In this document: piece by piece, positions 1-58,900 of the stretch
How the letters are laid out: every line of letters begins with the position of its first letter
Numbering within the stretch: position 1 is the stretch's first letter
DNA from: Branchiostoma floridae
Lineage: Eukaryota; Chordata; Leptocardii; Amphioxiformes; Branchiostomatidae
NCBI RefSeq assembly: GCF_000003815.2
Contig: NC_049996.1
Coordinates: 3,618,572-3,682,571 of the forward strand
Length of the DNA stretch: 64,000 nucleotides
Reading direction: 5' to 3'
Position numbers and translations under genes: made by a program
Notes under the pieces: model-generated
Database searches by the model: none
What the model was told of the DNA's origin: nothing
The model's input: the letters and a program-made list of their open reading frames with translations, nothing else

Positions 1-3000
1 TGTCTCGGATTCTTTTACATCTGTTGACTTGCTTGTGCTCCCCGATGCCGTACTCTGTTTCTTGTCGTCTTCCAAAGCTAACAATGCTTCCTCGAACTTC
101 TCAGAAGCAATCTTGGTGTACTTGTTGTTATACGGCTGATTCTTGGTACCGGCCATGACTTCAAGTATCTTCTGAAGGAGCTTGGATCTTTGTGATTTCT
201 TTTTATACTGGTCGTCTGTGTAGTTGTCGAAGATCACGTATCTGTCTTTGACGTGTTTCAGTAGCTCCTTGAACCATTTGGGGTTGCTGTCAGCGAACAC
301 GCAGTCTTCCAAAGTGTAACCGTGTCGCTCAGATTTCTTCTCAAAATCATCCCCGTAGGTAAAAAGGATTATGACATGCTTGAGGATGTCTTGTCGAAAC
401 ATTTGGAGTAGACTGTCGTAGGCCCTTTTCTCTTCGTCTGTAAAGCGAGGGGGGAACCTGAAAACCAGTATAATGGCGTGTATACCACTATGTGCTAGAA
501 GATGCACCCTACTTATCTCTTGGATAACTGTCTCATGTGGTACATCGGTATCAGCAAACCCTGGTGTATCAATAACATTGAGAATGTATCCGTTAATACA
601 GGCCTTAGCGTTATCACAGTTCTTAGTTTGAGATCCCCCCATGTCAGACTCCTCGAACACCCTGTCTCCAACAATGCTGTTACCAGTGGCGCTCTTACCA
701 CTCCCCGTCCTTCCCAGCAGCACTATGTTGTACGGAGGCTGAAAATAATAACAGATGCACATCCAATATAAACAATATATATATATATATCTAAATCTAT
801 ATCATACAGATTTGGATATAGATATTGTTTATCTATATCTATATCTTTATCTATATCTATATCTATCTAGTATCTATCTATCTATTTATCTTTCAGTCAC
901 TCACTCACTCACTCACTCACTCACTCACTCACTCACTCACTCACTCACTCACCCTCGTCAGATTATCTATCTATTTATTTATCTATCTATATCTATATAT
1001 CTATATCTATCTATCTATATCTATTTATTTATCTATCTATCTATCTACATCTATATCTATCTATATCTATCTATCTATATCTATCTATATCTATTTATTT
1101 ATATCTATATCTATATCTATACATGTCTCCCCCCCCCCTCTCTCTATATATAGATACATAGATGCATGCAAGGCTTATGGCTTCTATTTGTATGTAAATA
1201 TGACCTTTTTAAGTGACGATTAACTCTTTACCTGCCAATGTACTTGAGCCGCAAGGGGTGACACATCTGCGTAAAATAGACATTATTGGAACTTTTATTT
1301 AGAAAACAACAGGAGGAAAAGATTCAAATTAGATGCTTCAGATACATTTTAGAATTAATGCAAATTAGATTCTAACAGTTGCTTACCCGGTGTCTGGCTC
1401 CTTGGTTCGAGCATTTCAGCCAAATAGTCCTGTTTGACGTCATCTTGGCGCAGTGCCGAGCAGAGAGACTGGACCGCCCGCTCCCCACCTCTGGCTATCT
1501 CTTCAAGTATCAACTCGTTCAACAGCTTGATAAGATAAAAGAGTTTTGGAAATGTTTTAATCACAATTAAGGGATGAAGTACACTTCATTAGTAAACCTC
1601 TTCACTATGAGGACAAACAAAAGGGGCTTTTTGCCATCAGTTACCACAATTTCCCCGAGCTTTTAGTTTTCTCTTGAAAACGTAAAAGAAGCTTTACTAG
1701 AATCACAAGACATCATCATTTAAAGGAGTCACTATTCATTGGCCACTGCCTCCAAAGAAGAAGCCTGCTTTATCCGAATGAAAGCTCATCTGTGTTGGTA
1801 AATTCCATAGTGAAACGTTTAAACTTTGTTCCAACACAAGGGAAGAAACTCACCATAAATTTTCGGCCGAACACTCCGACCTTCATCAGATGAATGATTC
1901 GCTGCACTAATCCGGAAGTCGTCGGATGACGTCAGGTAGCAGCGAATCATAAATGGCGGGAAGGCGAAACCTGCCACCGTCACGGTTCAATGAGGGTTGA
2001 TGTGCCCTGATGTAGATAGCCTCCTTGACGCCCCTCACGAACCAATCCTGTTCAGAGTCCAAGATGCGAACTTGGTCCAGAGACACGGAGTGGCCCGGAG
2101 ATTCGACGTGTATATGCTGAGACACTTCTGAAGATGTTGAACTGCGACGTTTATGTTCCATGAAACGGGTTCTTAATGATCGTGCCGTTTCCCCGATGTA
2201 CGACTCAGTGCACGGACCTCTGAGGTTCTGTCCCGTACAACGAATGTGGTAAACCACGCCGCACTATTTTCTTTGGGCGTCTTATCCTTAGGCGCCACCA
2301 AAAGCTGCCTAAGTGTCCTAGTCGGCCTAAAGCAGGTCTTAATGCCGTGTGAGTTGAAGGTTCTACGTAAGGCTTCAGACAAATTTTGAATATATGGCAA
2401 CACTACTAGTCCCTTGTTTACAGAAGTGGGGCGGTTTTGATTGCCAGTCCTAGTAGTTTTGGGTGCTGTCGCTCTGGACACTGCCCACTCGGGGTAACCA
2501 CACTTACGTAAAGCTTGAGTAATGCGTTCTGTCTCTCTTTTTCTATCTTCCGGGTTGGTGATGATAGAATCAGCCCTATGGAACAAGGTACTGATGACAC
2601 CCAATTTGTGTTCTAATGGGTGACTAGAGTGGAAATTTAAATACTGCTCCGTATGTGTGGGTTTTCTATAAATTGTTAAAACATCTTCAGAAGTGTCTCA
2701 GCATATACACGTCGAATCTCCGGGCCACTCCGTGTCTCTGGACCAAGCTCGCATCTTGGATTCCGAACAGGACTGGTTCGTGAGGGGCGTCAAGGAGGCT
2801 ATTTACATCAGGGCACATCAACCCTCATTGAACCGTGATGGTGGCAGGTTTCGCCTTCCCGCCATTTATGATTCGCTGCTACCTGACGTCATCCGACGAC
2901 TTCCGGATTAGTGCAGCGAATCATTCATCTGATGAAGGTCGGAGTGTTCGGCCGAAAATTTATGGTGAGTTTCTTCCCTTGTGTTGGAACAAAGTTTAAA

Positions 3001-5096
3001 CTTTTCACTAAAGAAGCCTGCTTTGTTCATTGTCACATTATGTTTTCACCATGTACTTAAATTGTAATTAGCCTCCGGGCATAAACTTGAAAATTTAAAG
3101 AAAAAAAAAAACTTTCTTTCCTATAAAGCGCCATATCTTTGGTACACTAAAAAAACGACTTTTTAAAATGTTTCCTTTGATTTTCTTTGTTGCTTTTTTA
3201 CGATGAAAATATCTTTCACAAACAACAACATTTGCTAATCACCTGTTTCCTTTGTCCGGCTTCTGCTTTCATCTCGCCATGCTTCTCAATAGATACGATA
3301 CCGTCTTTGACCAGGTACTTGAGGATGTAGTTTCCCGCCATGTTCTTCACCAAGTTGGGATAGTTGCGACCGAGTGGGCTTGTTGTTTGTGTTGGTGAAA
3401 CAGCTGACGCTGCTGAAACAGTGCAACAGTGTACATCTAAATTTTAACACTTCCCACAATTGTTTGCTACAGGTGGCCATCAGATTTACGACAGTGTTAA
3501 ATATTGGAGTTCGAAACTGGCTGTTGACAAGATGATCAACAGAATGTTTGAACTATTAATACGATTATCCTGGGTCATCCTGTCAATAGTGCTATTTTCC
3601 CCACTATTGACAGGATGATCCTGTCAATATCCATAGGCTTGGGTCTTACTCGTAACATGGTATGATATTTTCTCATCCGGTTTCATGAAATTAATGATTA
3701 TCATATGCCCTAGATCTTGGGAAAACACGTTTGTAGATAGATAATCTGTAAATACATTTTGCTTTAATTTTACGGGAAGTTTACACGACAGTTTAAACAA
3801 ATACCAGGGTAAATCTCCTAAAAGATACAAACTCTTCGCGTTTACGATACTGTCGCAAACCTCCGACCACTTGTCCTTGTAACAAAGGATTATGGGAAGG
3901 GAACACAGCATCCGATACAACTTCCTACTGTATGATACAGTAAGCAATAAAAAGATAAGCTTTAACGATTAACAATAAACAGTTTGTTAATTAATGTTTT
4001 TTTACCTGCATTGCATTTCGGCGAGTCCTGTCGATTTTGTGAGACAGCATGGAAACTGGGAGCTGCAACATCCTTCATTTCAATGTTTATGTCTACCCAT
4101 GATCCCAAGTCGGCATACGCACTGCCTGAAAATGTTATAACGAAAAGGGGATTAAGTCTTCACTGATTAATTGTACACACACACACACACACACACACAC
4201 ACTCAAACACACAAACACACACACGCACACACACACACACACACACACGCTCACACACAAACACACACGTGCGCGCTCACACACACACTCACAGACACAC
4301 ACGTGCAAACACAGACACGCACACACACACGCTCACACAAACACACGCACACACACACACATACACACGCTCACATACACACGCACACACACAGACCACA
4401 TACACGCGCAGTCACACTCACACAAAATTATCACTGTAAATAGAAAATATAATTCGCTTTTTTACACATAACGTACTTTTAAGTGATAGAGACATGATAT
4501 CTACAAAGATATCTACCTCCAAGTCCCCCACAGAGAGCTGAGATGACCTCCACCTCATCGTAGCTTTTCGCATCCGGCGCCAAGTTTTCCTGTGCCTTCA
4601 GTGACAGAAAGCTCGCATGTGTAGCTTTCCCAAACGAGAATACCACATCCACATTGCCATAGACACTATAATCATCACTTTGATGTTGCCCATCCTCCTC
4701 TGCTTGTTGTGGTTTGATAGTGTTTATGATGACTAATTTTGAATCAGGGTACCTTTCCTCTTTCAGGATAGATGCAGCGTCTAAGGTTGTGGCTGTATAC
4801 CCTACGATGCAGCTGACATCTGTAGGAAGGTCAGGGAAATGTCTTGCATGGTATTCGCCTAACCAAGCGATATCTGGCACTCTTTTCCTCTTTGTGGTTT
4901 GTGGTTGGATGATGATGACCCCCTTTGTTCTTGCGTGTTTCAAATCGTCGTCGTTGTCTGTTAGGGCCAGAGTCGTGGAGTAAGTTTCCACGCCCCTGTT
5001 GTAAAGTTTCTGGGACAAGGTTGTGTTGATTTGGTTGACAGTTTGTCGGCTCTTGTCGTTTCGCTTCCAGTAGTCGTTTACAAGAAGTACAGCCAT
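1..5096 (-). CDS. GT4-like domain / CARD / AIG1 (GIMAP-type) GTPase, 5' six exons, runs off window
   Basis: Coding exons in transcription order: 5096-4517, 4125-4006, 3412-3243, 1525-1387, 1266-1232 and 738 to beyond 1. Phases match at every junction, giving about 594 codons so far. Residues 1-193 begin [10 protein letters not shown] and resemble the Rossmann-like N-domain of GT4 glycosyltransferases that I recall at the start of amphioxus and coral death-fold proteins; the usual GGIS stretch is missing. Residues about 255-336 form a CARD split by an intron after QRKQ ([16 protein letters not shown], then [17 protein letters not shown]). From residue 349 an AIG1 GTPase starts, with P-loop [13 protein letters not shown], switch-2 DTPGFAD and a TYGDD motif like the TRGDD of the family. 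The start ATG has a good context (gccATGg). A cytosolic immune-signalling NTPase is an inference; the domain order is read directly. The 3' end is outside the window. Confidence 0.8.
755..1160. repeat. TATC/TATA and CTCA microsatellite block
   Basis: Imperfect (TATC)n and (TA)n tracts surround a run of (CTCA)n at about 895-950, within the intron before the GTPase exon. The Tyr/Ile/Leu-rich open frames here are products of the repeat and are not genes. Confidence 0.95.
1232..1266 (-). other. 35-nt coding microexon linking CARD to GTPase
   Basis: The CARD exon ends in phase 1 and the GTPase exon opens in phase 0, so they cannot be joined directly. A 35-nt segment between a cgcag acceptor and a GCAG|gtaaag donor supplies D plus [11 protein letters not shown] and corrects the phase exactly. 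Confidence 0.7.
1861..1889 (-). ncRNA. Hammerhead-like ribozyme motif, Penelope left copy
   Basis: Reading the minus strand: CTGATGA, one extra A, a 6-bp stem GGTCGG/TCGGCC closed by AGTGT, then GAAA. This is the hammerhead core plus stem II. Stem III would be only the palindromic AATT, suggesting a dimeric form as reported for minimal hammerheads in metazoan Penelope elements. The extra A at the core/stem junction makes activity uncertain. Confidence 0.55.
1907..2604 (-). pseudogene. Penelope RT-linker and GIY-YIG endonuclease remnant
   Basis: Two overlapping frames together cover the C-terminal third of a Penelope polyprotein. The GIY-YIG module shows the SYIGET core, the R-x3-H-K helix and the conserved tail [14 protein letters not shown]. 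The main reverse-transcriptase catalytic domain is absent. The frame change near 2257-2270 prevents continuous translation. Confidence 0.8.
2693..2911 (+). pseudogene. Inverted copy of the Penelope GIY-YIG C-terminus
   Basis: This encodes the same 72-residue tail as the minus-strand copy ([18 protein letters not shown], then [16 protein letters not shown]) with one visible substitution. It is part of the inverted terminal repeat and not an independent gene. Confidence 0.85.
2929..2957 (+). ncRNA. Hammerhead-like ribozyme motif, Penelope right copy
   Basis: Identical core to the copy at 1861-1889 but on the plus strand, because the element's ends are inverted: CTGATGA at 2929-2935, stem II 2937-2942 with 2948-2953, GAAA at 2954-2957. 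Confidence 0.55.
3575..3618. repeat. Perfect 17-bp stem hairpin
   Basis: tcatcctgtcaatagtg at 3575-3591 is followed by a 10-nt loop and its exact reverse complement at 3602-3618. It lies in an intron of the CARD-GTPase gene. It is probably a MITE relic, since another partial copy of the stem follows at once. Confidence 0.8.
4168..4430. repeat. (CA)n microsatellite
   Basis: Imperfect CA/CACG dinucleotide run of about 260 bp in the first intron of the CARD-GTPase gene. The Thr/His and Cys/Val open frames across it are artefacts. Confidence 0.97.
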
Positions 5097-5870: not shown

Positions 5871-7081
5871 TGTCAACGATTGGAGAAAGAGGAACTAGTG
5901 TACATGAGCGAAAGTTAGTAACCACGGGGAGGGTCTTTTTAGCGAATGCCCACAAACGCCCACTCTAGAGAAGTCCGCGCTGCACGAATCTCATTTTTTT
6001 TGCTTGGAATATGTCCACGTTGTGCTCCCATGTATTAATCCTGAGTTTCAAGTCAATCCATTGACCCGAAGTGACATAAATCAAAGTTTTCGATTCTCGA
6101 TGGTCTTTTTAGCGAACGCCCAGCAAAATGTCTTTTTAGCGAATGCCCACTATATCCACAAAAATATCGGCCGTCGCGCAACGACACCTAAACCTACCGC
6201 CACAAACATGTTCAAGATGGTGTCCCATTGATGTGTACGGAGTTTCCGTGCTTTACAAGCATTTTAAGTCCCTGTTTTTGGTCAAAATATACGGCGACGA
6301 TACTACCATACTTTAACTATAGCAATTCAAAATGGCGGGCACTAGTCATGTGACCTCCTTGCGGGACTGTTCTATAAGTATCGCGGGAGGGACTGTTGTA
6401 GCATAGCTTCTCATACAACCATTTTAGAGTGAATTCTGAACAAGATTTTCATTTCATAGTGCTATCATCTGACTGATATTTACAATGTGGTCATTTTTTC
6501 TGTGCTATTATTACCCAGGTTTGAGGAACTTAGTGCAAATGTGGATATTGATTCACCTCAGTGCCCAATTAATGTACAAAAGGCCCAGACACATTAGTGT
6601 TATAAACCTGAATAGGGGCAGGTAACCAATACTAGAAAAACATAGCTATTTATTATTAACAATACTATTTACATTATAATAATAACTCTTCACCAAACTG
6701 GACTTTTCGTATCTTTATTTATCACAGAAACATTGTTACAATGAGGATTTGATTAGATGAGTATCTGAAACAGTGTGTACAAACTTATTTCAAATACAAA
6801 AATGTATTTCGTTTCACTTCCTAAATATTTTTAAAGTATTGGAAGAAGTTGCGCATAAACAATATTAATTGCATTATTTATGTGCAGTAAAATGTGACCA
6901 CATGCTATCAATAGCCTAATAAAATGTTGGAACATGGCACAAGCGGGCTCCCCTTCTGAGTACAGAAAGGAAATGTTTTATAACATTAAGTTATGACGTA
7001 GAAAATTTCAATTGTAAAATGTACCTTTATTAACATTTACAAACAAATTGTTTTTTTCTCTTCTTAATAAATTACAACAAT

Positions 7082-7480
7082 ACAGGTAAGTAAGGTGTGT
7101 TTCCTTTTATAACAGGCCAGGTAAGACACCGTACAGGTAAGTAAGGTGTGTTTCCTTTTATAGCAGACCAGGTAAGACACCGTACAGGTGAGTAAGGTGT
7201 GTTTCCTTGACTACAGACTAGGTAAGACACCTTACAGGTGAGCAACGTGTATTTCCTTTCATTACAGACCAGGTAAGACACCGTACAGGTAAGTAACGTG
7301 TAGTTCCTTTGATTACAGACCAGGTAAGACACTGTACAGGTGAGTAAGGTGTGTTTCCTTGACTACAGACTAGGTAAGACACCGTACAGGTGAGTAACGT
7401 GTATTTCCTTTGATTACAGACCAGGTAAGACACCATACAGGTGAGTAACGTGTATTTCCTTGATCACAGACCAGGTAAGA
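7082..7480. repeat. Tandem repeat, left core, rich in splice-donor-like motifs
   Basis: About eight units of roughly 50 bp, each with two sites resembling consensus 5' splice sites on the plus strand (caggtaagac and caggtgagt or caggtaagt). The same units occur inverted at about 8230-8505. Confidence 0.9.
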
Positions 7481-7807: not shown

Positions 7808-7907
7808 NNNNNNNNNNNNNNNNNNNNNNNNNNNNNNNNNNNNNNNNNNNNNNNNNNNNNNNNNNNNNNNNNNNNNNNNNNNNNNNNNNNNNNNNNNNNN
7901 NNNNNNN
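7808..7907. other. Assembly gap (100 N)
   Basis: Exactly 100 N inside the tandem-repeat core, probably a gap of unknown size. Confidence 0.99.
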
Positions 7908-8505
7908 ATACCCTATCTGGTCGGTTTTTTTCCCTGGGTACGGCGCTATTGGGGTTCCGGGGAAAGAGAGGGTCCTTCTTTTCGCGGTGAAAAATTACCT
8001 GTCTGTGTCAAAGGGAAAGAGGGAGGACTGTTTTCTTCCAGTAATCTGGGTCTGACGTGGATAGAGTGAAAGGAGAAAACTCGTTATCCACCTTTTAAAG
8101 GCCCTATCCGGCTATTGGGCAGATGGGAAAAGCGCCTTGCCCTCGCGTATAGACCCGTTCCGGGTTGGACAGGAAAGTAAAGCCACTTACTTCCCCGTAT
8201 AGTGCCCTATCTGGTCTGTAGGCAAAGGAAAGACGCCTTACTCATCTGTGCGGTGTCTTACCTGGTCTGTAATCAAAGGAAACACACGTTACTCACCTGT
8301 ACGGTGTCTTACCTAGTCTGTTATAAAAGGAAACACACCTTACTTACCTGTATGGTGTCTTACCTGGCCTGTAGTCAAGGAAACACACCTTACTCACCTG
8401 TACGGTGTCTTACCTGGTCTGCTATAAAAGGAAACACACCTTACTTACCTGTACGGTGTCTTACCTGGCCTGTTATAAAAGGAAACACACCTTACTTACC
8501 TGTAT
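7908..8505. repeat. Tandem repeat, right core, with a corrupted-looking stretch
   Basis: From about 8200 the units are the inverted counterparts of 7082-7480. Between 7915 and 8190 the sequence keeps only traces of the repeat and contains many homopolymer runs and random-looking changes, as expected from poor read quality beside a gap. Confidence 0.7.
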
Positions 8506-9667
8506 TGTTGTAATTTATTAAGAAGAGAAAAAAACAATTTGTTTGTAAATGTTAATAAAGGTACATTTTACAATTGAAATTTTCTACGTCATAACTTAAT
8601 GTTATAAAACATTTCCTTTCTGTACTCAGAAGGGGAGCCCGCTTGTGCCATGTTCCAACATTTTATTAGGCTATTGATAGCATGTGGTCACATTTTACTG
8701 CACATAAATAATGCAATTAATATTGTTTATGCGCAACTTCTTCCAATACTTTAAAAATATTTAGGAAGTGAAACGAAATACATTTTTGTATTTGAAATAA
8801 GTTTGTACACACTGTTTCAGATACTCATCTAATCAAATCCTCATTGTAACAATGTTTCTGTGATAAATAAAGATAAGAAAAGTCCAGTTTGGTGAAGAGT
8901 TATTATTATAATGTAAATAGTATTGTTAATAATAAATAGCTATGTTTTTCTAGTATTGGTTACCTGCCCCTATTCAGGTTTATAACACTAATGTGTCTGG
9001 GCCTTTTGTACATTAATTGGGCACTGAGGTGAATCAATATCCACATTTGCACTAAGTTCCTCAAACCTGGGTAATAATAGCACAGAAAAAATGACCACAT
9101 TGTAAATATCAGTCAGATGATAGCACTATGAAATGAAAATCTTGTTCAGAATTCACTCTAAAATGGTTGTATGAGAAGCTATGCTACAACAGTCCCTCCC
9201 GCGATACTTATAGAACAGTCCCGCAAGGAGGTCACATGACTAGTGCCCGCCATTTTGAATTGCTATAGTTAAAGTATGGTAGTATCGTCGCCGTATATTT
9301 TGACCAAAAACAGGGACTTAAAATGCTTGTAAAGCACGGAAACTCCGTACACATCAATGGGACACCATCTTGAACATGTTTGTGGCGGTAGGTTTAGGTG
9401 TCGTTGCGCGACGGCCGATATTTTTGTGGATATAGTGGGCATTCGCTAAAAAGACATTTTGCTGGGCGTTCGCTAAAAAGACCATCGAGAATCGAAAACT
9501 TTGATTTATGTCACTTCGGGTCAATGGATTGACTTGAAACTCAGGATTAATACATGGGAGCACAACGTGGACATATTCCAAGCAAAAAAAATGAGATTCG
9601 TGCAGCGCGGACTTCTCTAGAGTGGGCGTTTGTGGGCATTCGCTAAAAAGACCATGCGGTAACCACG

Positions 9668-17031: not shown

Positions 17032-20000
17032 CTATTCTATAACAGGAGGGGCGGCAACTTTAAGTTGAAAGTTTTCATTCTGTAAGATGCTTGAACTACT
17101 ACTGAAGATCTTCTTTTGGTCTTGTGGCTTGCCGGAGTCTTCGTACTTTGCCGCCCTCTTCAGTTCCGCCAGGATGGCCAATCGAGAGGGACCTTTGAAG
17201 GACTTCTGTAGCTGGGAGTAGGAGAGCTCCTGTTGGGGGGAGAGGAGGGCGTCGCCATGGGAACGAGGCTGACTGACAGCTCCTGATGGGAGGGGCTCAA
17301 CCTGAAATGGCAGAAAAAAATTGTTGCAGCAAGAAAGTACAATTACTACATGGAAAACTACCAAGTTTGCAAATGACAGGATGGTGCAAAATGGTATAAG
17401 ATGAAAGAAAAATCTTAGTCTAGACTTTCACTTTCAATTCATTTGTTTTTATGCACTAACAGCAAACTTTAAGGAAATTACAATGGTGATGTTGTTGAAA
17501 TACTGCGTCACTTTAAAGGCCCTGACCTGTAAAATACTTTTTTTGGTTGAGTGATTGACCATTCTATAAAACCGCGCCATATTTTTTTGCAAGGTACTGC
17601 GGTATGATACTACTCAAGCCTCTTAGCCTTATTTGAGGCCGCAGGGACAGTGGGTTGTTATCTACTGTCTAGGTATGTAAGGTGGAGCCCATCCCTCTCC
17701 TTCACCACCTTTTACCTCCCCAACTTTGTTGATTCTTAGATTTTTTCAGAAAAAATTGGACAGGTAAAAAAAAAAATAAAAATAAATTTTTTCAAAAGGT
17801 CTGGGGTGAAGATGTGAGGCTTACCTAACACACACAAAAAAATAGCCTGAGGAGTTTAATTACACATTTTATACAATGAATCCCTCCCTTTGATTTGTTA
17901 CATGTACTAATGTTCTGAATGATAGGCCTTGTTTTCAGACTGAAATTATCTGCATGTGGATCTGAATGGTAATATTTACAGGTTTGTGATAGCAAAACTT
18001 AATGTATTATTTTTTTGTGTGACATAATTTGAATTCTTTCTTTTTTTGAAAATGAGAAAATTGGCAAATCCGAGAAGCAACAAATAAAATTAGTCCAAAC
18101 CTGTTTGCTGGCCGCAGTTGCGCTTGACCACGAAAGCGTTCTGCCTCGTCCTGTCTTCGCTTCCCGACGAGCCACGTTACACAGCGAGCAGGACCAATGG
18201 GGCGTCCCCTCGATCATGTGACAACAACCAACAGACTGAAGGCACGACGTGTGGTATGCATGGCCACAACTGGGGGGAAAGACAGAATTTCCAAGTTACA
18301 GGTGTAACGGGCTGGGTTATATATGCCACTGGTAAGAATAAATATCTGGGTATATACATTTTTTTTGCCAGCTATACTGGCTTAACATCATATATTAGCT
18401 TGATTAAATCTCACTTATAGCAGCTCGTCCCACATTGCAAGGAGGGGCCAGTTAAAGCCCAGAACAGCAGAGTCTGTGTTACACAGACTAGATCTTATAT
18501 TTAAGTTGAAACAGAAGCATAAAGTAAACACAAATGCACTTATGTTTGAATGGGTTAAATTTTTTTGGAGGATCTGGAAAATGAAGCATTTGTGGTGGTT
18601 TTGAGTTCGCAGTAGCACCACATACTTTTTAGTTTTAGTCATACTGTAAGTGTAATTGAAAAATGTTTGTGGTGGTTTTGAGCTCCCTACAAAGGGCCAC
18701 TGCAAAAACTGAAAACATAAAATGACCACAAACATTTCTGTATTACTATCTTTGCCAAGAAGGTTACGTTTTTGGCATTGTATAGTTTTACAGGAAGGGT
18801 TTGCTAGCTGTTCCCCTTTAACGTGCTCAAAGCATTCCTCCTCTACATGTAACACTCGACCCCCATTTTACGTCCCATTTACACAGATACACACAGGAGA
18901 TACATGTATCTTCTCTTCTGCTGGGTGTCTTTCTCTTAGTGTGTTTCTCGACTATTGAATTGAGCTTTGCAAGGGCTTACCTAAAGACTATAACTGAGTC
19001 CTGTTCCTCTGTAATGGAGAAGTGTTGCCCACACACACCACAGTCCTCCTGTCTGGGCACCAGACCTTTGTTTACAGCAGCCTTCAGGTTACAGAGGGAC
19101 CAGTGCAGGTCATGGGACAACAGGCTGTTGGTAGTCTTCAGTAACGTCTGGAAAACATGGGGGAAAACTGTTCAAGCATTTTTTTAATCACCTTTATTGC
19201 AGTAGTACAAGATGAATGAATTGAAAAGAAGATAGCTAGGCCTTAATAATGAACAGTAATGAATGAATGAAGACCTTTATTGCACATTTTTGTCACACCG
19301 GGCTAAGTACAGGTCACAACAAGACATGTTGAAAAGATACAGTTCACAGATACAAAATGAGACTATTGCTGGATAAATTTAACTTCTCCTCGCTTTTCTG
19401 TTATAGTGGAGATAAAAGAACAGATATGTTTTATGATCGATGGTTTGTCTACTTGCATTAGGATCAGTAAAATCTGGAGGGCTTAGTCCGGCCTGTATGT
19501 TATGAACCCACTAAGAAACAACCAAGACAATGCATAATCAAGTATTAGAAACCCCCCACATGGAAGTGTAATAGTCCAGGGGAGAGCCTCATTCTGAGTT
19601 AGTCAAACATTCCAATTTTATGGCATGATGAAAAACATCTAGAGATTAAAACGATTTCATAGTATTACATTTAACTCTTACAATCTCAAGACAATGAATT
19701 TCCTAACACACTTGTACAAAAACGCATTTAATCTTGGCTGGTATGTAAATGACCTGTTCTGCATGGTACGGGGGGTCTGTTGTAATTCAGGTGCTTTGAG
19801 GGAGTAATAAAACTAAACGTCAATATTTAAACTAAGGGTGGTAACTTCTGGACGAACAAATTCTACTTGACAGAAAAGAAGTGGGAACATTTTGCTACCC
19901 GACCACAGCAAGATGGCAGTAGGAGGTCAAACAGAAACAGAGTTGGACACAGCCTTTGACATGATACAGTCACATCTGGGTAAAGAGTGGATACAGCTTG

Positions 20001-23000
20001 CCTTGAAATTAGGTATTAAGTACAACGAAGTAGAGGATATTCTGAACAAGAGTGAGGGAAATCTGACGTGGAAAGTCCGTACTGTGCTGGAAAAATGGAG
20101 ACAACAACAAGGGAAGGCGGCAACAAGTGAGAAATTACTGGATGCTTTGAAGCGTGCTGGTAGAAAAGATCTTGTCGATACAGTGAGAGACAAGTTATAC
20201 CCATATTTAGAGGATACCTTTCCTTCAAAGCACAAAGAAGATGTGACTGAAAAGAGTGAAGTTGTCAAGACCCCCGAATCATCAGATACTGCTACAGCCG
20301 TGGTGTCTAGTTCGCAGCCAAAAGGAGACTCCGTAAAAAAGAAGAAAGCGTTACCAGGTACATGTACATCACAGGCTTCACTTAGAGTCAATAAAAACGT
20401 CAAGAGCAAGACTGGTAAAAAAACAAAAGGTGTAACAAGAAGGAAACGTCGTAAACAAAAGACTGACTCTAAAGGCATTGAAAGTGATGTAAAATTTGCA
20501 CTAAATGCCATCGAAAGCATACAGCTTGCAAAGGAAAAGCTTAAGGAATGCTACTATCTTGTGATCGAATCATCTGTAAAGGAAGACCTTTTGGAGGTCA
20601 TTTTCCAGATTGATGACACAGGGTTAGACTTGTGTAAGGACATTATTGCTAAACATTGTAAAGGTTTTGAAATTGGTAAAATGTGGTCATCGTCAATCTA
20701 TGTACAAATGTTTCCAGAAACTGAGAAAAGCATCACTGCATTGAATAAGCTCCAAGAAAGCGGCCAGTTGGTTACAGACTTACAGTTAGAGTTTGAACAA
20801 ATTGGGCTCGACTGTCCCTTAGAAGTGGATGTTATGTCGATGGAAGAGCTGGAAGAAGAGGTTGCAGAGATTGTGGAGGAAGCTATGGACATATTCAAGA
20901 AAGACGAAGTGTTACGACAAGGAAAACCTGAAGAAAGAAACCTTGAGAGAGAGGATGAACTGAGAGATGCACTGTTGCGGATAACGGCCTGGATGGGTGA
21001 TGAAGACAATGTGAGGACACTCCTACAGGCAGGTGTGCAGGTCAACACAGCCAACTCAGATGGAGAAACACCGCTATGGAACGCCGTAAAGGCAGGGCAT
21101 TCCAACATTGTAGCACTTCTGCTAGAGGAAGGGGCCGACACAGATGTTGTTGACAAACATGGCTCCTCCCTGCTTCTTTATGCCAGTTCTATTAGACACA
21201 TCGAAGTGTGCAAAGTTCTTATACATCACACTGAAGCCAATAAGATGGACGAATATGACATTATGGAGTCCGACAATCCTCTCTGGATAGCCATAGATAA
21301 TGCTGATTCACAGTTACTAAGATTTCTCATCAATGAGGAAACTCATATAAAGAAAGCAACCTTTAGCCCACTCTGTCTGTCAGTTGAAAAACTCATGCAG
21401 TGTGAACAAGGCATGAATGGCACAAGAGCCTGGGAAGAACATGTGCATGTCTTTGAGATTTTGGTCAATGCGGGAGAAAATGTTGATGCTACTAATGGAC
21501 GTGGTGAGACCTACCTCACATGTGCCTGCATGCAAGGTTGCAAGAAGACTGTGAAACTACTTCTGGAAAACAGGGCTGATCCGAACACATTAGATTTTCA
21601 GGGAAGAACTCCGCTGCTTATGGCAGTCACGACAGGTAATGCAGAGATTGTGAAAATGTTGACACAGCAGTAGACACTGACTTAAACAAGGCAGGTAAAA
21701 AGGACATGACTCCACTGAGAGTAGCAACCTTGAGATACAAGGCAGAGGTCGTGAGAATCTTGGCACAAGCAGGCGCCGACTTGAACATGACAGACCCCAC
21801 AGGTAAGACCCCACTGTGGCTTGCAGTTTCTAGTGGGCCTGCATATGTAGACATTGTGAGAATCTTGACACAAGGAGATGCTGATGTCAACAAAGCAGAT
21901 AACACAGGAAGGACTCCGCTCTGGAAAGCGGCTTCGAAAGGTAACACAGAGATTGTAAGCATCTTGACACAAGCAGGCTCTGACTTAAACAAAACAGATA
22001 GCAAAGGAAGAACTCCGCTATGGGTGGCAGCTGAGAGAGGTAAAACAGAGATTGTAGCCATCTTGACACAAGCAGGCGCTAACGTAAACACGACAGACTC
22101 GGAACAAAAGACACCACTATGGATAGCAGCATGGAATGGACACATAAGAGTTGTGGAAGTACTTCTCAAAGCAGGTGCAGATAGTTCTCTCACAGATGAC
22201 ACTGGCAAAACCCCACATCAAGTTGCTATAGAAATGGAGCATAATGATGTTGCAAAGATGATTGAAGAGGAGGTTAGAAAGAGATTTAAGAAAAAATCAT
22301 AACTAAAACCATGGGATGGAGTAAGTAGTAGTGCAGGAGTTAACAAGATTTCACTTCATGTAAAAAATCTATTTGCCCGAACTAACTTTTCCCTAGCCTA
22401 AAATTTAAATAACATTTTTCACTTCCCTGCAGCAATGGAATTCTTTTTTAAAATTATTTTAATTTCTGTGTTCACCTATGCTTGATGCCATGACTTTGAT
22501 AAGTAACAAATATATCAAAATCTCACTGAGGGAAAGATTTTGCTTGCCCGATGAGACAAGTAGGTTCAGGACATGCACTTGCCCGGGACAATTGGACTAG
22601 TGGACTTGTCCAACCCTGTGAAACCTTTCTCATCAATGCATTTAGCAGTGTGTTGGGCAAGAATACGCAAATAAAGATTATTGTCATTGTCATTGTCAAT
22701 ATTGATCTCAATGAAGACAATAAACACACACCTTTACTTACTTGTACAACTTTGTTCCAACATAAACGGAAATACTCGCCATGAATTTTCGGTCACTCTC
22801 ATCGGATCAAAAGTGGCGGAAAGACGAAATCTACCACTCCCCGTCTTCCCGCCGCTTTTGATTCACTTATGACATCATCACCTGAAAGTGACACCACAGT
22901 TTTTTTCAGACATTTGATGAAGATCAGCAAGTCTGACCAAAAATTTATGGTGAGTGTTTCATTGTACAACATATGAAATGTATTCTACCAACTTGAAGTT

Positions 23001-26800: not shown

Positions 26801-29800
26801 GAGAACTAGAGTTTCTTTAGAAGTTCATTGATGGCTTTCTGAATATTAAGCACACTAAAACAAGCCAACTGTGGGTGCACAAGACAGGGAAGGAGCTGGT
26901 AATCTAATATTTTGCTTTGTATGGACATCAATTTGTTGTTTTTTGTGTGTGGAAAAAAATGATAGTGTGGGGGAGGGGGGCACTGGAAGATTGCATAGTT
27001 TACTGTATTATTCACTTAAATGTCTTCTCGATACCAAACTTTTGCGTTATGAGAAAATTTAACTTGTTTGTGGAACTAAATGTTCATGGTGGTAGCAGGT
27101 GTACAAAACCAATGAAAATTTTCATAATCTTTCAAAGAGATTCAACAACGAAAATTAAGAACATGCTCCCAAATAATGATCTATTGGACATAAAAAAAAT
27201 ATTAGCCCTGCTACACATAATGTGTATGTGTGAACACTACTACTGACAATAACTGTAACGTTATGTCCTTACGTAATACAATTGTAGGCTAACCAATCCT
27301 TGTTGTACAATGTATTTACAGGGGGGCAAGCAGAGGCATTGTCTAGCAGGACTCAGACAAATACAACTAACGTTACAACAAAGTAAAGAAACAACGAAAA
27401 CATGGCTACTGCAGCACCATTAAGCCTCGAAGAACAATTCAAAGAAGACCTGTCCTGTAGTATCTGCTTGGACCTCTTTGACAGACCCAAGGTTTTGCCC
27501 TGTCAGCACACCTTTTGCCACGACTGCCTAATCGACCACGCGGCAAGACGCGGCATCTTCAAGTGCCCAAACTGCCGTCTTAGAGTCCAGCTTCCGCGAA
27601 ACGGAGTGGCGGGTTTGCCCGACAACTACCTAGTTACGAGTCTGTGCGAGAGATTTGAACAGTCGCCACAGTTCGAAGGACGAAAAGAGCGGTCGCTATC
27701 TGGCGACACACCCAACTTTCAACATGTACCAGAGTGCAACATACCTGTACGTTTTGAAGAAAGCCGTTGTGATAGAAACCCTATCACACCTCTCGCACAA
27801 GCCCAACAACCTGAACAAGAAAGTATTACTACTCTTCAAGGCCAGTATACCGAGCGCGGGAATATCGTAGCAAGCGAAACGGGACCCGTCAAGCAAAATC
27901 AGAACGTTCTCCCGCTACAGAAGGTGACGTTTGGCGGAAAGGGGCAAGAGGAGGGGCTATTCAACCACCCTGTTGGTGCGACGGTGTCTGACGATGGGGA
28001 AATTTTTGTGGCGGACTATGGCAACCAGAGGATCCAAGTCTTCACCCTACAGGGGGAATATCTTTCGCAGTTCCCAACTGTGGTGTCAGGTGAATAGACA
28101 ATTTTGGTTTCATTTGTTTGGAGCCCAATTTTTGTGTTTCCTGATAGCGTAAACATACTGTTTTTGCTGTGTGTTCTTCTTCTTCTGTCAAAAGAAAGCA
28201 GATGTCGGGTGACCCCTTTTCTTTTTATTTAACAATTACTATATGGTGAGCCTAATGGTATAGAAATTTCAATACATTGTAATAATGTTAATGACCCCAA
28301 AACCAAGAAGTTGTAAGGTAGCTCTTTTTACAGAAGACTACAAGAAATACATTTTGCATTTTTGCATAAATGTTGTTGCCTTTCTAGTTTCTTGTTAATT
28401 TTCGTTGCTATATCTTTCCCTTCAAGCTTGTGATGAAATACATTTTTGTCAGTTTCAGATCATAAAAAAGATAAAATTTTGTTTTCGAATGAAACAAGAA
28501 AATTTCTGTTCTTAGAAAGGAGTTTTTGCAATGTTGTAGTTCTATATTAAAGCATCCTCTTATTTTCTGTCTGGTGAATAGAAAATTTTGGTTTCATTTG
28601 TTTGGAGCCCAATTTTTGTGTTTCCCATATAATTTTTTTAAAGGATAGGAGCTTTTGCAATGTTGTAGATGATGATTTTAAGCATTTTCTTGTTTTTTTT
28701 TTCTGTCAGGTGAAGAGACAATGTATCCACATGATGTGGCAATGGACAGGGAAGGGAACCTGTGGGTGGTGGGGTGCACAGATTCCGCTGGCTTCGGCAT
28801 AAAGTACACCAGACAGGGAACGGTCCTTACAAAGTTCAACCTACAGTACACGGAGTGGCGACGGAGATCGGCAGTTGCCGTGGACACCCGAAGGAACCAC
28901 GTTCTCGTCACGCAAACCCTCGGGAACAAGGACAACCTACACGGCCAAGTTCTGGTGTTTAAGTCGGACGGGACGCATTTGCGAACAGTGGGCTGGGAAC
29001 AGGGAATGAAGGTTCCTTGTTACATCCATGTAGACGGACAGGGCGACATCATTGTGTCCGACTGGGGTAACAACAGCATCTACGTGTTCAACAGGTGAGA
29101 CTGCCAGAAATACGGATTCAGCCATACCAATTTAATTTGTTGCTTCTCAGATTTAAAAAAAAAAGAAATGGACCGGCAGGTTGAAAAAAAAAATTTGCAT
29201 ATTAGGTCTTGGGTGAAAATATATGGCTTAAATAGTAAAAAAAAACAGCCTGTCAGGAGGAGTTAAATGGCACATTTTTTATACAATGAATCCCTTCTTT
29301 TGATTTCTTACTCATTCTTACTCCTTTCTTAACACTGTCCTTAATAAAAGGCATTGTTTTTAGACTGAAATTATGTGCATGTGGCTCTGAATGGTAATAT
29401 TTACAAGTTTTTGAAAGCAAAAACAATTTGCTATTAGGACTTTATTTTTTTGTGTGAAAATGAACAAAATGGACAGAGTAATACAAGAAGCAACAAATAA
29501 AATTGGTGTGGCCTAAGAATGATAGTTTTGTTTATATCTCTTATTTGTATCTATCCAAAATGTTTTTTGTGACCTGTACTTCATTCAATCATTTATTCAT
29601 TCAGCTAGGATTTTATTATAGGGAGTCTAAATTTCTTGGTGAGTCGCGTTAAGTGATATAAATGGGGGGCATCCAACTTCCATGGTGCATAGTTTTTGAG
29701 AAATTTAAGTTAAAATGCTGCATTCTTAGGTATTCTGCAGGGTAAAATTACTGTCAGAGAGGTCACAGTAAAAGACTATGACTACTAACAGATGACCTAG

Positions 29801-44500: not shown

Positions 44501-46942
44501 GCCCAATTGCTTGCCCAGGGCAATCAGAAAAATGGACTAATGTCCAATTTGCAGCCCTACAAACAGATTTCTGATTTGTACCCCACAGCATTCCTACCCA
44601 CCCCATACAGGTATTACTGATGTGTCCCCACAACATACCTTCACTGGCATCTTTAGTGTGCAGTACTGTCACAGTGACACATTTGAAGACTTCATCCCTG
44701 CAGATTTCTGAATTGTCCCCTACAGCATTCCTACCCACCCCATACAGGTATTAGTGAAGTGTCCCCACAGCATACCTTCAGTGCCATCTTTAGTGTGCAG
44801 TACCGTGACACATTTGAAGACTTAATCCCTGCAGATTTCTGAATTGTCCCCTACAGCATTCCTACCCGCCCCATACAGGTATTAGTGAAGTGTCCCCACA
44901 ACATACCTTCAGTGCCATCTTTAGTGTGTAGTACTGTTACACATTTGAAGACTTCTGACTTGACCGTGTCGACCAGATTGGGTGGGATGTCTCCCAGTGG
45001 ATACGCTCGTCCGGCGAGGCAACAACTGATGTACACCAGGAGCTTGTTACCCAGCTTAATCTGGAGTAAAAGGGTAACATTTAGAATATTGACGATCATG
45101 ATCACATTCTGTACTTAGCTTGAAAGGGCAATAACGTGCAATCAAACCCACACTGTAGAAAGAAAATCAGAATCTTTTCCAGCATAATCAGGCGTAGAAA
45201 AGGACTATTTTCCAGCATTCCATAATAAGATTATCTAACAGATTTCAGAGTTGGACAAGTTTTCTGAAATTCACTTGTACTTTCGGGCAAGTACATGAAA
45301 AAAATTTACTTGCCGGAACCAATTTTTTTCAAATTTTCACTTGCCCAAAATTCTAATGTTACTTTATGAGAATGTACAGTATACTGTGTATGCCATTTTA
45401 ACTTCCAGAAATGGAATTCTTATCATTGCCTCTATTTGTTTATGTTGACCATTGCTTGATGTCATAACTGTAAAAAGTACCAAATATTAATATCAAAATC
45501 TCACTCATTAAAAAAAATCTTTCTTGCCTAATCGGACAAGTGGGGTAGGACATGCACTTGCCTGAACAGCACTTTCACTTGCCCTTTCACTTGGACAATA
45601 GGGCTAGTGGACTCGTCCAACCCTGATACATTTTGGTTTACATAGTACAAGCATAGTAATATACTGTGATGCATTTTATAATGTACAGTACTTACCCAAT
45701 TTTAGCCTTTAAGAATACTTAAGAGAGAGAGCCTTACCAGTTGTTTCTTACTCTTTGGAAGCTTAAGTTTGAAAAGTCTGTCCTTTTGTCTAGCAGCTAG
45801 AGAAGTCTACAACAGGAGACACACAAACACACAGAACACAACAAAAGGGTAAAGTAGATCAGAAAAGATGTAGACTAGGAGGAAGAAAATCACTAGAATC
45901 ATTCTACTTAAAACTACAATGTATGAGGCACTATAATAATAAGTATAGAAAAATTTATGGTATGAAGGAAAGAAATGAAGTAAATGACTTTCCTAAAATG
46001 GAAAAAGTTTTTCAACTCCAAACAATATAGTATCAGTCATTCCTGACATATGCACATTTGAGATATACATTGTGTTCAAGAGAATAATAATCATAAACTT
46101 TCTTTTAGACATTAATAAGTACACAATTCCCTTGATTAATACACACTTTCTTTCAAAACACACTTTCCTTTTAATGTGTCAGTCTTAAGGTACCCATTGG
46201 AATTATGAGGGTTGAAATTACAGTTCAGACATAAATGTAGTATAGTTTTTTGTAACGTGTAATTACTATACATATCCACAAACGAGGAACATGAAAATGA
46301 TAATTCTGGGACAAAAGTGCAATGATGAGGACATTCCTGAAGAGATGAAGGAAGTTCTTCATTCTAGAAAAGACGTCACCTACCCCAGACACCGACTGGT
46401 CAAATAAAGAGGGTGTTGCCAAAAATGCCTTCCACCATACCTGGTCGTCTGTGAGCTGTTTGTTGGACTTGATGGCGCTCTGTAGAACCCTGAGCAGCTC
46501 CTCTAGTGGAGTGATGTAGTCCTGCATGCCTTTGTTATAGATGTAGATCAGGGCATCATACAGGCCATGGAGCCAGCACATAACCACAACCTGGCAGGAG
46601 AAATGTCAAATATTCAATTATTAATAAGCATTTTCTGTTATTGTATCTTTCTGTACTCACCAAGCAGAGGCTGATAGGGAAAATCGTGACCTTTCCCTAA
46701 TAGTGATGTTTGTCTCTATCAGCAGGCCCAACGAAAGAAAAAGCTCACGATTTTCCCACTAAACCTCTGCTTGGTCAGTAATTCTCTCTGTTTGTAATGT
46801 CTGTAATACATGTATGCAATGCAAGACCAACAACATGGTGTAGTGCAATACTTTGTATAGTAAAGAAGGCATAATTCGGCCTTTGGCTGCCTTGCCTTTT
46901 GACAAATAAACCACTTGCTTGCTTGATTGATTGGTTGGTTGG

Positions 46943-52900: not shown

Positions 52901-55900
52901 GGAGGCACCGAGTTCGAATTTCTGACAGATCCCGATATCATGTCCTTCGGAAAGGCACTTCACACCATATCCTCACTTGAATGAGGTTAAAATGAGTACC
53001 TAGCTTTGGTTAGAGACGTCCCTCGGATGGAACGTTAAATGGAGGTCATGTGTTTGAGGAGCGCCCCACCTTGAGCATGTTAAAGAACCTACCACACTTA
53101 TCGAAAAAAGTAAGGGTCCCTCCCAGTGTAAAGTGGATCAAACAAATATATCCGGATAGGCAGCTTGTACACTTCAGTACAAACCTGTTGTGTAATGCAC
53201 ATGAGGTGGCTTATAGGGTTACAAACAGACAAACAAACAAATATAGAGTCATTCTGTGGATTTTAACAAGACGCAGATATTGGATTCAAAACAGGATTAC
53301 TTTCTCTGGGGGTGAAAGAGGCCATTTACATCAGAGCCCACCAACCTTCCCTCAACCGAGACGGGGGCCGATACCGACTTCCAACCACCTTTGACTCTTT
53401 GCTGACATCACTTCCGGTCTGGATGTATGACTTAGGCTTTGGGTCATTTTTACTTGAAAAGGATCAGAGGACTGATCAAAAGCTTGTTGGTAACTTAAAG
53501 TGCTTTATTTTTGCGTATGTTTATAAAGTTTAAAGTTGTATCATAAGCAAACACAGTATAAAGTTTACATACCAGCCAAGGCCAGAGCCTTGCTCACGTT
53601 TCCTCCTGTAGCCAGTGACTTGAAGAAGCTGCTGGCATAGACCAACTGTACGTCTGAGATGTCAATCACTTCTAACTCCTCCTCAGTACGCACATCCAAC
53701 ACATGCACCTTCTCATACGCATCCACCAGTACCAGGGTTCTGGAGTTCACCCACTGTGGAATAGAAGGGACTTACAATGTAAGAAAAAAATGCCTTCCTT
53801 TGGTTATACGCTTAATATTGAAGATAAAGACATTAATGCACATTGCGCTAACAATTTATTCAGCACTTTGAACAAAAGCACCAATGCAATGCCAGTTTGG
53901 CTTGAGAACACTTGTTTGAATTTCTGACAGTGGGCCTAATTGTTTGAATCGTAGGAGCCCCGGGCCGTACATTCAATACAGAAAGGTCGGAACACCAATA
54001 TTGAACATAATTACAGCCCAGGTACATGTCTGATCATATAAAAAAACAGTATGGACTTGCTACATTATGTACTTTTGTACATTATGTCTTGAATAAATAA
54101 AATAAAAAGTTAACTTGTCTAAGTAGATTAAGAGTGCTCTATCTAGTTTTTTCTTTTTCTTTCGGCTCTCCCCCCCCCCCCCCTCTGTCTATAACAATGA
54201 AGTTTGGGCCTTCTAGCAGCTTTTCTTGTTTGAACTATGTGTACATTGTATTTGAATGGACAGACTTACAGTGACAGCAATGATGACATACTGTAGCTCC
54301 ATCTTCTGTAGGGCTGAGAACTTGATCTCATCCTCCTGGTAGGAAACCTGAAAAGTGAAAAAGACCAAAAATATAGATGGAACATTGGAACTTATTTCTG
54401 AGAGGTGAAGGTGGGATGTTCTTGTAGCTCAACAGGTAGAATCCTCACAGTTGAGCTCCAGCCTGCTTCCTATTGAAGAAAAAACACTGCTTGTCCTATC
54501 TAATAAAGGATACATGTATCTATTACGCACAAAGTTAAAGTTTGACATGGAAAGACGAGTGTCGTCATGCATTTCAGTTTACTTTGTTCAACCATATTGT
54601 AATGTGTCTCACTAGAATTTTGGCTAGCTTAAAAAGAATTATAAGGGAAAAAGATAATCCCTACCTACCTACCGACCCCATTTTTTTCTGGACTGAAACA
54701 GGAAACACAGCATTTTTTTTCCTAGGTCCTACCTGGAAGAAGAAGAGCTTGTTTCCCCTGCGGTACTCAAGAACAGGATCCTGGATGCGGATGGTGTCCG
54801 TGATCTGAATATAGGCTACCCCACGGATAAAGGTGAAGTAGCATAAATGTACTTACCTGGAAGAAGAAGAGCTTGTTTCCCCTGCCGAACGCCAGGACGG
54901 GATCTACGATGCACGTGGTGTCTGTGATCTGGATATAGGTTACCCCACAGATAAAGGTTACCTACCTGGAAGAAGAAGAGCTTGTTTCCCCTGCAGAACG
55001 CCAGGACGGGATCTACGATGCACGTGGTGTCTGTGATCTGGATATAGGTTACCCCACAGATAAAGGTTACCTACCTGGAAGAAGAAGAGCTTGTTTCCCC
55101 TGCAGAACGCCAGGACGGGATCTACGATGCACGTGGTGTCTGTGATCTGGATATAGGTTACCCCACAGATAAAGGTTACCTACCTGGAAGAAGAAGAGCT
55201 TGTTTCCCCTGCAGAACGCCAGGACGGGATCTACGATGCACGTGGTGTCTGTGATCTGGATATAGGTTACCCCACGGATAAAGGTTACCTACCTAGAAGA
55301 AGAAGAGCTTGTTTCCCCTGCCGAACGTCCGTGATCTGGATATAGGTTACCCCACGGATAAAGGTTACCTACCTGGAAGAAGAAGAGCTTGTTTCCCCTG
55401 CCGAAAGTCCGTGATCTGGATATAGGTTACCCCACGGATAAAGGTTACCTACCTGGAAGAAGAAGAGCTTGTTTCCCCTGCCAAACGCCAGGACCGGGTC
55501 TACGATGCGGGTGGTGTCTGTGATCTGTATCATGACGAACTGCCAGGCCAGCACGGGGAGGGTGGTGGGCTCTCCCTTCAGGGGGTGGGCGAACAGTACC
55601 TTCAGGTGGGGCTTCAGACTCACGATCAACATCTGGAGGGAGACAAAAATGGTAAATCAAAATAATAGAAAATCTTACGCAAAAGTAATTCTCAAACACC
55701 ACAATATACAAAATATATGAGCCAAATACTATCAATACACTGCACAGAAAAATAATCAGGCATGTTTTACATTTAGTCCAGTTGTAATTATACATAAATC
55801 TTTGTATATTGCCCTTTGTTGTCAAAGAATTATTTATTTATTATGTATAATAAATTAGACTAGATTATAAGCATTTCATGACAGATATTAGCATTTCAGT

Positions 55901-58900
55901 ACCATGGCCAGGGAAACCTAACACCATTGATGTCTTTAGTTGCACAGCGCTATCCTAAAAGAAAGGTTCTGGGCCCAAATCACAGTATAAGGGATCAAAA
56001 TCACAGCATATGGGGTTCAACTCAGAGCATAGGGACACAGTGTAGGGAGTCCAAATATGGGGTCCAAATAGCAGCATATGTAGTCCAAATCACAGCATAG
56101 GGGGTCCAAATCACAGAATAGGGGATTCAAATATAAAATCATAGGGGGTCCAAAGCACAGCATAGGGGTATAAGTATCACAGCATAGAGGGTCCAAATCA
56201 CAGCATAGGGGATCCAAATATCTCAACATAGGGGTCCAAATCACAGCATAGGGGATCCAAATATCACAGCATAGGGGGTCCAAATCACAGCATGGGGGGT
56301 TCAAGTGTCACAGCATAGGGAGGTCCAAATCACAGCATAGAGGGTACAACTCACAGCATAGGGGGTCCAAATCACAGCATAGGGGGTCCAAATCACAGCA
56401 TAGGGGGTCCAAATCACAGCATAGGGGGTCCAAATCACAGCATAGGGGGTCCAAACTCTAACTATGCCACCAATCCTACTAACTGTAACAGTAACTGTAG
56501 CTCCTAACAATCTTGCCAGACTGAGGTTTGGTACCAGAAGATCTTTTACTTTCAGTACCTTGGACAGAGAAGCCATTGCCAGCAGACTGACTTCCTTCAT
56601 TGGATGGTCCTGGACGCTCTCTGTCGCCAGGAGCGGTTCGATGGCCGTCACCTCGCCGCGAGCGCCGGAGAACAGACAACGAGACTCGCACGTCCGCATG
56701 CCCATCAACCGCTTAAAGCTGAGCTCGAAGACTGATCCACCGCTGTCACAACACACAGCTAGCGTAGGGTCATCTGTGAACTGTAGAAACAGTACAAAAT
56801 AAAACACAATTAATGCAAATAAAGGAGGAGTGAAGGAGGCAGTGTACATTAGAGCCCACCCCCAAGAGAGACAGGGGCCGACATAGACTTTTTAATACTT
56901 TTGACCCCCTCTTGCAAAAGTGGTAAATCCTGACGTCACTGCCGTCATTCTGTGAACAAGGTCGACGGAGATTGACCAAAAATTTATTTAGAGGGGTAAA
57001 TCCCTATACTATTAGTTTAATTCAGTGTTGGAAGTAAAGTCTTAGCATTTTTCTATACTGCACAAAACATGATCTGAAATGTATTTGCAATAGCTCCTGT
57101 ATACAACAACTTTCAGTCTCAAGTATGAATGAATTTCATGTGCTCATATGTCAGTGACAAATTGCAGCCGAAATCTCATAAGCCTACAAGAATACAGCAC
57201 ATGTACCTGGGAATTCATTTACTTAAGATGACACTTCAAATTTGCAGAAGAAGAAAAATTAAGAGTCTTTGAGTTTGCTGTTACAAAATAAAGGACAGCA
57301 TATGTTTGAAGTGTGGTGTTTTCATTGCAAAAAACTAATAGTATATACATGAAGAAACGGACGAGTATTTAACGATTTACAGTACCTTGATGTGTAAGAC
57401 AGCAGTTCCAGGAGGATGGGCATCAGTGATTGTTCTCAGGAGCTTCCCTGTTGTCAGGTCCCACATTGTTATCTGTGAGGTAAGGTTATATAAATTTATT
57501 GATATGTTTCTACTGGTACAATATAAAATACAACACAATGATTATACGACTACAATGCTTCTCATGCTCACTGTCACATGCACAAACACATGAGCACATT
57601 GTAGGTGTGTCAGGAAATTTTCACAATGGTCACAGATGGACAGAACAGCTACATTGCTTTGTAGTTTGTAGCGATGGCTTCACCACTATATATCATAAAT
57701 ACGTCACAAACACTATATATCATAAATACATCACAAACACTTCTGCCTTTTCCTTATTACAGTATTCTCACCTGTCCCTTGGCAAATCCACTGAGAAGTC
57801 TCGTGCAGTCATGGTTGATACTGAGGGCAGATACAGCCCCGTACTGAGCACCAACAGCTGTACTACCAAGACACCACTTCAGAACCTGCTTTGGGTCTGA
57901 TAAACCAAGATGAAGAAGAAATTTCTTCATGTCATCCCTCGCAAAGCAAGGTTCAATAGTCAAAACTCAGGGGAAACACACCCAACAAAGGAGGAGATAT
58001 CTCCTTTTTTCCCTTAGTCATAGGGTTCTTTATGCTTGCTTTGTATATAGGATACATGATTTTTTTTATGCATATCCAAAAAGCTTCCATATCACCAATT
58101 AGAGACTGTGATGCCACGGTGTACATGCAGCACTTACCAAACACCAGGATGAGACCATGAGATGATCCAATAGCAACCAGGTGTGAGACCGCCATGGCGG
58201 TAGGCATGCCCGCGTCTACCCTGTCCTGTAGGGAAACAAAAAATTAGAAAATATACCTGAAATATTTGTAAATCTTACAGCCCCTCCCCCTCATTCATGA
58301 CATGATGATGCAAAAGAGTATAATCTACTGAAATAGCAAACGTCATGAACATGGGCTTGTAGTTGTAGCAGTACTAGTTGGACATTTCATTTTATCCATC
58401 CCAACTAAACTTGAATAATGTTGTCCACAAACATACAAACATACACAGCCCGCTGCAGTACTGTAGGAAAATGGCAGGTAAACCATTTTTTAACTTGACC
58501 TTCCTTTTCACAATAGGCACTTATCACAACTTCTTAAGTTTTATGCTGTTGATCTCAGTTGTTTTGATATTGTTGTGTTGGTACATACGAGATTTTAACT
58601 AACTGACACGTGAAATGGTTTGAAAAAAAATAAATGTATTTCCACCTATCTCTTGATTTTAATTGCCAATGTACTGTATTTGCATTATCAACTTGTTACT
58701 GGAGTAGAATTTCCTTGTAAAATCGACGCAATTGAAAAGTTTGAATTTGATTTGATTTGATCTACATACAGACCCAACAAGCCCTGGCTCAACCGATTGC
58801 CTCTGGCGAAGGCAATAAGTTGATTGGTTGTGGTGCTACTTACAGCAGCCGACATGACTTGCGCCGACACGCCCTTTAACACGACATGGCGTAGGATAGA

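Follow-up and report, generated by a model that had tools for sequence, protein, structure and literature searches.

A predicted lancelet gene joins the N-terminal half of a GT4-conflict domain to a CARD and an AIG1/GIMAP-type GTPase

Predicted gene structure

A minus-strand gene at positions 5096 to 1 of a 64,000-nucleotide stretch of the Branchiostoma floridae genome (contig NC_049996.1; referred to as the window; GC content, 40%) was predicted to encode a GT4-conflict half-domain, a CARD, and an AIG1/GIMAP-type GTPase in a single chain. With a probability that we put at roughly 0.55, the product is an intracellular immune GTPase of the AIG1/GIMAP kind that carries a CARD and a probably nonenzymatic N-terminal half of a GT4-conflict domain and would act as a CARD-recruiting switch. 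The in-frame joins, the domain matches, the GTPase motifs, and the loss of the other GT4 half were all computed, and as a predicted gene model the GT4-CARD-AIG1 architecture was confirmed.

Six exons separated by GT-AG introns with matching phases gave 1,782 nt in frame, corresponding to 594 amino acids, and no stop codon was present in the joined coding sequence (Table 1). The six-exon reading frame put forward in the original prediction was thus recovered, with residue borders that agreed with its modules. The context of the start codon (AAAGCCATGG) was graded good. The frame was still open at window position 1, and the end of the protein therefore lies outside the window, leaving the model truncated at its C terminus. 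A tblastn search of the window with the 594-amino-acid protein returned nothing outside the gene itself below an E value of 4.7.

Table 1. Exons of the predicted GT4-CARD-AIG1 gene and the element inserted in its third intron (window coordinates)
Feature	Coordinates	Strand	Residues and content
Exon 1	4517..5096	-	Residues 1-193; start codon and N-terminal Rossmann half of the GT4-conflict domain
Exon 2	4006..4125	-	Residues 194-233; linker, without a domain match in the full-chain scan
Exon 3	3243..3412	-	Residues 234-290; linker and first half of the CARD
Exon 4	1387..1525	-	Residues 291-336; second half of the CARD
Exon 5 (proposed 35-nt microexon)	1232..1266	-	Residues 337-348; brings the GTPase back into frame
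Exon 6 (incomplete at the window edge)	1..738	-	Residues 349-594; AIG1/GIMAP-type GTPase with P-loop GRTGSGKS and DTPG
Transposon-like insertion, intron 3	1803..3015		Inverted arms of 336 nt (1803-2138 and 2680-3015), 97% identical; not a protein-coding part of the gene

The AIG1/GIMAP-type GTPase

Exon 6 matched the AIG1 family (PF04548) with 190.4 bits (cutoff, 27; E = 3e-56; profile positions 2 to 204 of 212), as expected from the AIG1 GTPase originally proposed. The GTPase also matched the solved structures of GIMAP4, GIMAP7, and GIMAP5 across 214, 209, and 194 residues, respectively, as well as those of GIMAP2 and GIMAP1; the AIG1 GTPase core is what the window protein has in common with these five proteins, and the match covers the GTPase only. 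When the full chain was compared to the PDB, 26 of 26 matched sequences fell on the GTPase. In the alignment to GIMAP4 and GIMAP7, the motifs that we take to be the P-loop, DTPG, and the conserved box were intact. GIMAPs have a C-terminal coiled coil or membrane anchor and cluster in a GTP-driven manner; to our knowledge, vertebrate GIMAPs contain neither a CARD nor a GT4 domain.

The CARD

The CARD had been described as complete. On spliced exons 3 and 4, a match to PF00619 above the cutoff (25.2 bits; cutoff, 23.9) spanned profile positions 6 to 83 of 85, but in the scan of the whole chain the score fell to 21.3 bits, under the same cutoff, and the assignment as a CARD is considered borderline. 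Neither exon 3 alone nor exon 4 alone produced a CARD match, and a match that appears only upon splicing supports the junction between these two exons. Compared to the PDB, the stretch was most similar to designed alphaRep proteins (about 20 residues, E = 1e-4), with the CARDs of Apaf-1 at an E value of 0.46. No Pfam match at E ≤ 10 was obtained with shuffled controls, of which five were derived from exon 1 and five from the CARD stretch.

The GT4-conflict half-domain

Exon 1 matched the Pfam family GT4-conflict (PF20706) at residues 15 to 134 (34.0 bits; cutoff, 26; E = 2e-8), and the score remained above this cutoff in the full-chain scan (30.6 bits), in keeping with the GT4-like N-terminal domain that had been predicted. 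The family takes its name from GT4 domains found in conflict systems, and this name is consistent with a role in immunity. The match spanned only profile positions 9 to 122 of 385 and not the two-Rossmann layout of the complete profile (positions 1 to 385). The half of GT4 that holds the donor sugar was absent from the 594-amino-acid chain, in which the N-terminal half is followed by a linker and the CARD.

Sequences potentially encoding the C-terminal half were sought elsewhere in the window. No Pfam match to this half was found in three frames each of introns 1 and 2, and a C-terminal-half profile compared to 1,603 window ORFs of at least 25 amino acids returned nothing significant (best E value, 4.2). 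The positive control for this profile was a 95% identical relative, and the negative results obtained with it are therefore weak for divergent sequences. A C-terminal half hidden in an intron was likewise unsupported, with introns 3 to 5 covered by the weak bacterial profile and by Pfam searches of two ORFs in intron 3.

Within the N-terminal half, 25 alignment columns were invariant in five bacterial rows, three of which are close kin (78 to 95% identical); the window protein keeps 8 of the 25 and changes 17 (alignment A3). The changes in this alignment included the glycine loop, HGGI in bacteria and RQTV in the window protein (residues 17 to 20), and GHD, which is replaced by GYT (residues 99 to 101). 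The glycine-rich GGIS stretch was accordingly missing, as had been noted from the sequence before any search was made. A four-sequence profile of the bacterial GT4 N-terminal half failed to detect exon 1 (E = 8.7), and hhalign of bacterial GT4 against exon 1 gave a probability of 0.7%, the sole weak alignment falling at residues 135 to 167, in the expected register and just beyond the Pfam match. Neither the GT4 part of the full chain nor profile A3 matched a solved structure at E ≤ 1. Because the bacterial profile, hhalign, and structure searches failed, the homology to GT4 rests on the broader Pfam model. With the donor-binding half gone, catalysis is improbable, and we infer that the GT4 half is probably a noncatalytic binding module.

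Bacterial relatives of the GT4-conflict domain

Bacterial relatives were fished with a composed 36-amino-acid loop probe. Searches with the bacterial GT4 domain recovered one relative in genome_contigs (L003) and eight plasmid records; the domain had no match among phage records, and the bacterial alignment had none among viral contigs. Exon 1 itself matched nothing in the plasmids or genome_contigs, and PADLOC returned no match for exon 1 or exon 6.

Two Rhizobiaceae plasmid proteins (L001 and L002) matched PF20706 over positions 1 to 385 (E = 1e-110 and 4e-114, respectively). The second half of GT4 in both carries EGFGLTGLE, a stretch that is presumably the motif called E-x7-E and that sits within the part aligned to solved GT4-type enzymes (WaaG and an enzyme that we take to be MshA). 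Both proteins (L001, 233 to 5191; L002, 278 to 5191) are about 1,640 to 1,650 amino acids long, with the complete GT4-conflict domain at the end. The L002 gene adjoins genes annotated as encoding a Tn3-family transposase and a recombinase and an annotated dfrB gene, and the ORF of L001 contained, elsewhere in its sequence, a weak PADLOC match to mad8 (E = 0.001).

The microexon and the CARD-GTPase join

The proposed 35-nt microexon is the weakest part of the gene model. The GTPase of exon 6 is read in phase 0, but exon 4 terminates in phase 1, so that a direct splice between them breaks the frame; when the microexon is skipped, a stop follows residue 350, which is 14 residues beyond the CARD exon and upstream of the GTPase. 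Between exons 4 and 6 there were 30 open candidates, 2 of which passed a simple donor/acceptor filter. The microexon chosen had a higher acceptor pyrimidine value than its rival, a 14-nt candidate at 966 to 953 (0.59 versus 0.24), and a slightly lower donor score (7/9 versus 8/9). An alternative acceptor within exon 6 (ATAG/TG, unscored) also leaves the GTPase in frame, and the link to the GTPase is therefore not dependent on the microexon alone. Judging from the frame, splicing of the microexon could determine whether the full protein or a GT4-CARD version lacking the GTPase is made.

Sequences surrounding the gene

The transposon-like element in intron 3 contained two minus-strand ORFs (2176 to 2697 and 1910 to 2263) without a significant Pfam match. 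One of these ORFs contains letters that we take to be GIY-YIG-like, and the element is possibly Penelope-like. An inverted repeat of 1,429 nt (5932 to 7360 and 8225 to 9653; 99% complementary) flanks an 864-nt spacer with a 100-base gap of N at 7808 to 7907; it is either a genuine palindrome or an assembly artifact.

Other putative genes were found farther along the window. On the plus strand, two overlapping ORFs at 19871 to 22299 represent another death-fold gene, with numerous ankyrin repeats accompanying a Death domain, at a distance of about 15 kb from where the GT4-CARD-AIG1 gene starts, and ORFs at 27387 to 29095 encode a RING finger and NHL repeats, as in a TRIM-like gene. Pieces of VPS8 were located on the minus strand (46228 to 46605 and 56304 to 56891). 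A family of direct repeats at 54741 to 55554 comprised six overlapping 218-nt copies, mostly spaced by 109 nt and 61 to 100% identical to the reference.

Interpretation and alternative explanations

Beyond the computed features, we infer ligand binding, clustering, and recruitment. The GT4 half may bind a ligand or a partner; candidates include glycans, glycosylated molecules of microbial origin, and other GT4 proteins. By analogy, binding of GTP would lead to oligomerization of the AIG1 domain and thereby bring the CARDs together, and the clustered CARDs would recruit a CARD-bearing caspase or adaptor, with death or inflammation as the outcome. The CARD-recruiting GTPase sensor suggested by the original prediction is plausible. 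A more specific version, in which a conflict-type glycosyltransferase lost all but the N-terminal (acceptor-side) half and now serves, without catalysis, as the sensor of a CARD-GTPase receptor, with the microexon as a splice switch between signaling-competent and GTPase-less forms, is offered as a tentative and rather unlikely extension.

The locus could instead produce two transcripts, one starting at an internal promoter and specifying CARD-AIG1, the other representing either a GT4 half-gene or a GT4-CARD form; the triple chain would then be an annotation artifact. CARD plus AIG1 alone is a known architecture according to the text considered from the lancelet pangenome (PMC12373286), the joins of exons 1 and 2 and of exons 4 to 6 were deduced solely from splice sites and reading frame, and skipping of the microexon ends the frame upstream of the GTPase. 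However, all five junctions are in frame at GT-AG sites, introns 1 and 2 are short (391 and 593 nt from the exon coordinates), and the alternative acceptor in exon 6 still gives an in-frame GTPase when the microexon is left out. We regard two transcripts as unlikely. A decaying fusion left by transposon-driven shuffling would account for the transposon-like element with 97% identical inverted arms in intron 3 and would be compatible with a gene end that lies outside the window, but 1,782 nt without a stop, intact GTPase motifs, and a good start context make a pseudogene improbable. Still less probable is an active effector that transfers sugar to molecules of the invader, with the missing GT4 half supplied in trans or by a missed exon. 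GT4 domains have been predicted to be effectors in the text considered from PMC8195603, but here the half with E-x7-E is missing from the chain and was found neither in introns 1 and 2 (Pfam) nor in the window (weak profile), and both HGGI and GHD are changed. A CARD-bearing GTPase with a probably nonenzymatic GT4 half therefore remains the preferred reading.

Relationship to known immune proteins

Comparison with published architectures drew on portions of the text of each cited paper. Kaur et al. (2021; PMC8195603) described GT4 domains N-terminal to TRADD-N in cephalochordates, hemichordates, and cnidarians, with more than 500 GT4 paralogues in Acropora digitifera; they also reported fusions of AIG to TRADD-N and proposed that GT4 was laterally transferred from bacteria and has an effector function. 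The GT4-TRADD-N(-LRR) proteins described there likewise place GT4 N-terminal to an adaptor domain of death pathways, whereas the window protein has only the N-terminal half of GT4, a CARD in place of TRADD-N, and an AIG1 GTPase in place of LRRs. AIG-type GTPases are also among the bacterial conflict effectors described by Kaur et al. (2020; PMC7159879).

A CARD preceding an AIG1 GTPase has likewise been reported. In the 2025 lancelet pangenome (PMC12373286), an N-terminal CARD and a C-terminal HINT were the most recurrent lancelet AIG1 architectures (CARD+AIG1 and CARD+AIG1+HINT), and a DD-CARD protein with AIG1 and a coiled coil is known from Biomphalaria glabrata (PMC7053062). In contrast to the window protein, no glycosyltransferase module was named for these proteins in the text compared, the figures and supplements of both papers lying outside the comparison. 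In Acropora digitifera, proteins with NACHT/NB-ARC and glycosyl transferase group 1 domains (PMC4083563) similarly join a glycosyltransferase to an immune NTPase, but the NTPase is NACHT/NB-ARC rather than AIG1, and a half-domain is not described in the portion of that paper compared.

Among the literature matches listed (in one case, 30 of 469), no title or text passage named the GT4-CARD-AIG1 order, which may nevertheless appear in figures or supplements; it was also absent from the portions compared of PMC2575513, PMC3723955, PMC11508797, and PMC13133943. The triple order thus looks new in combination, and its pairings resemble those already reported in immune proteins.

No test of the function of animal GT4-conflict domains was present in the portions of the literature covered, in which these domains are proposed effectors. 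The fusion predicted here combines, within a single chain, two immune families that are subject to shuffling. A probably nonenzymatic half-domain that shares a reading frame with a CARD and a GTPase would uncouple binding from catalysis, which would permit a direct test of whether GT4-conflict domains sense invaders rather than modify them.
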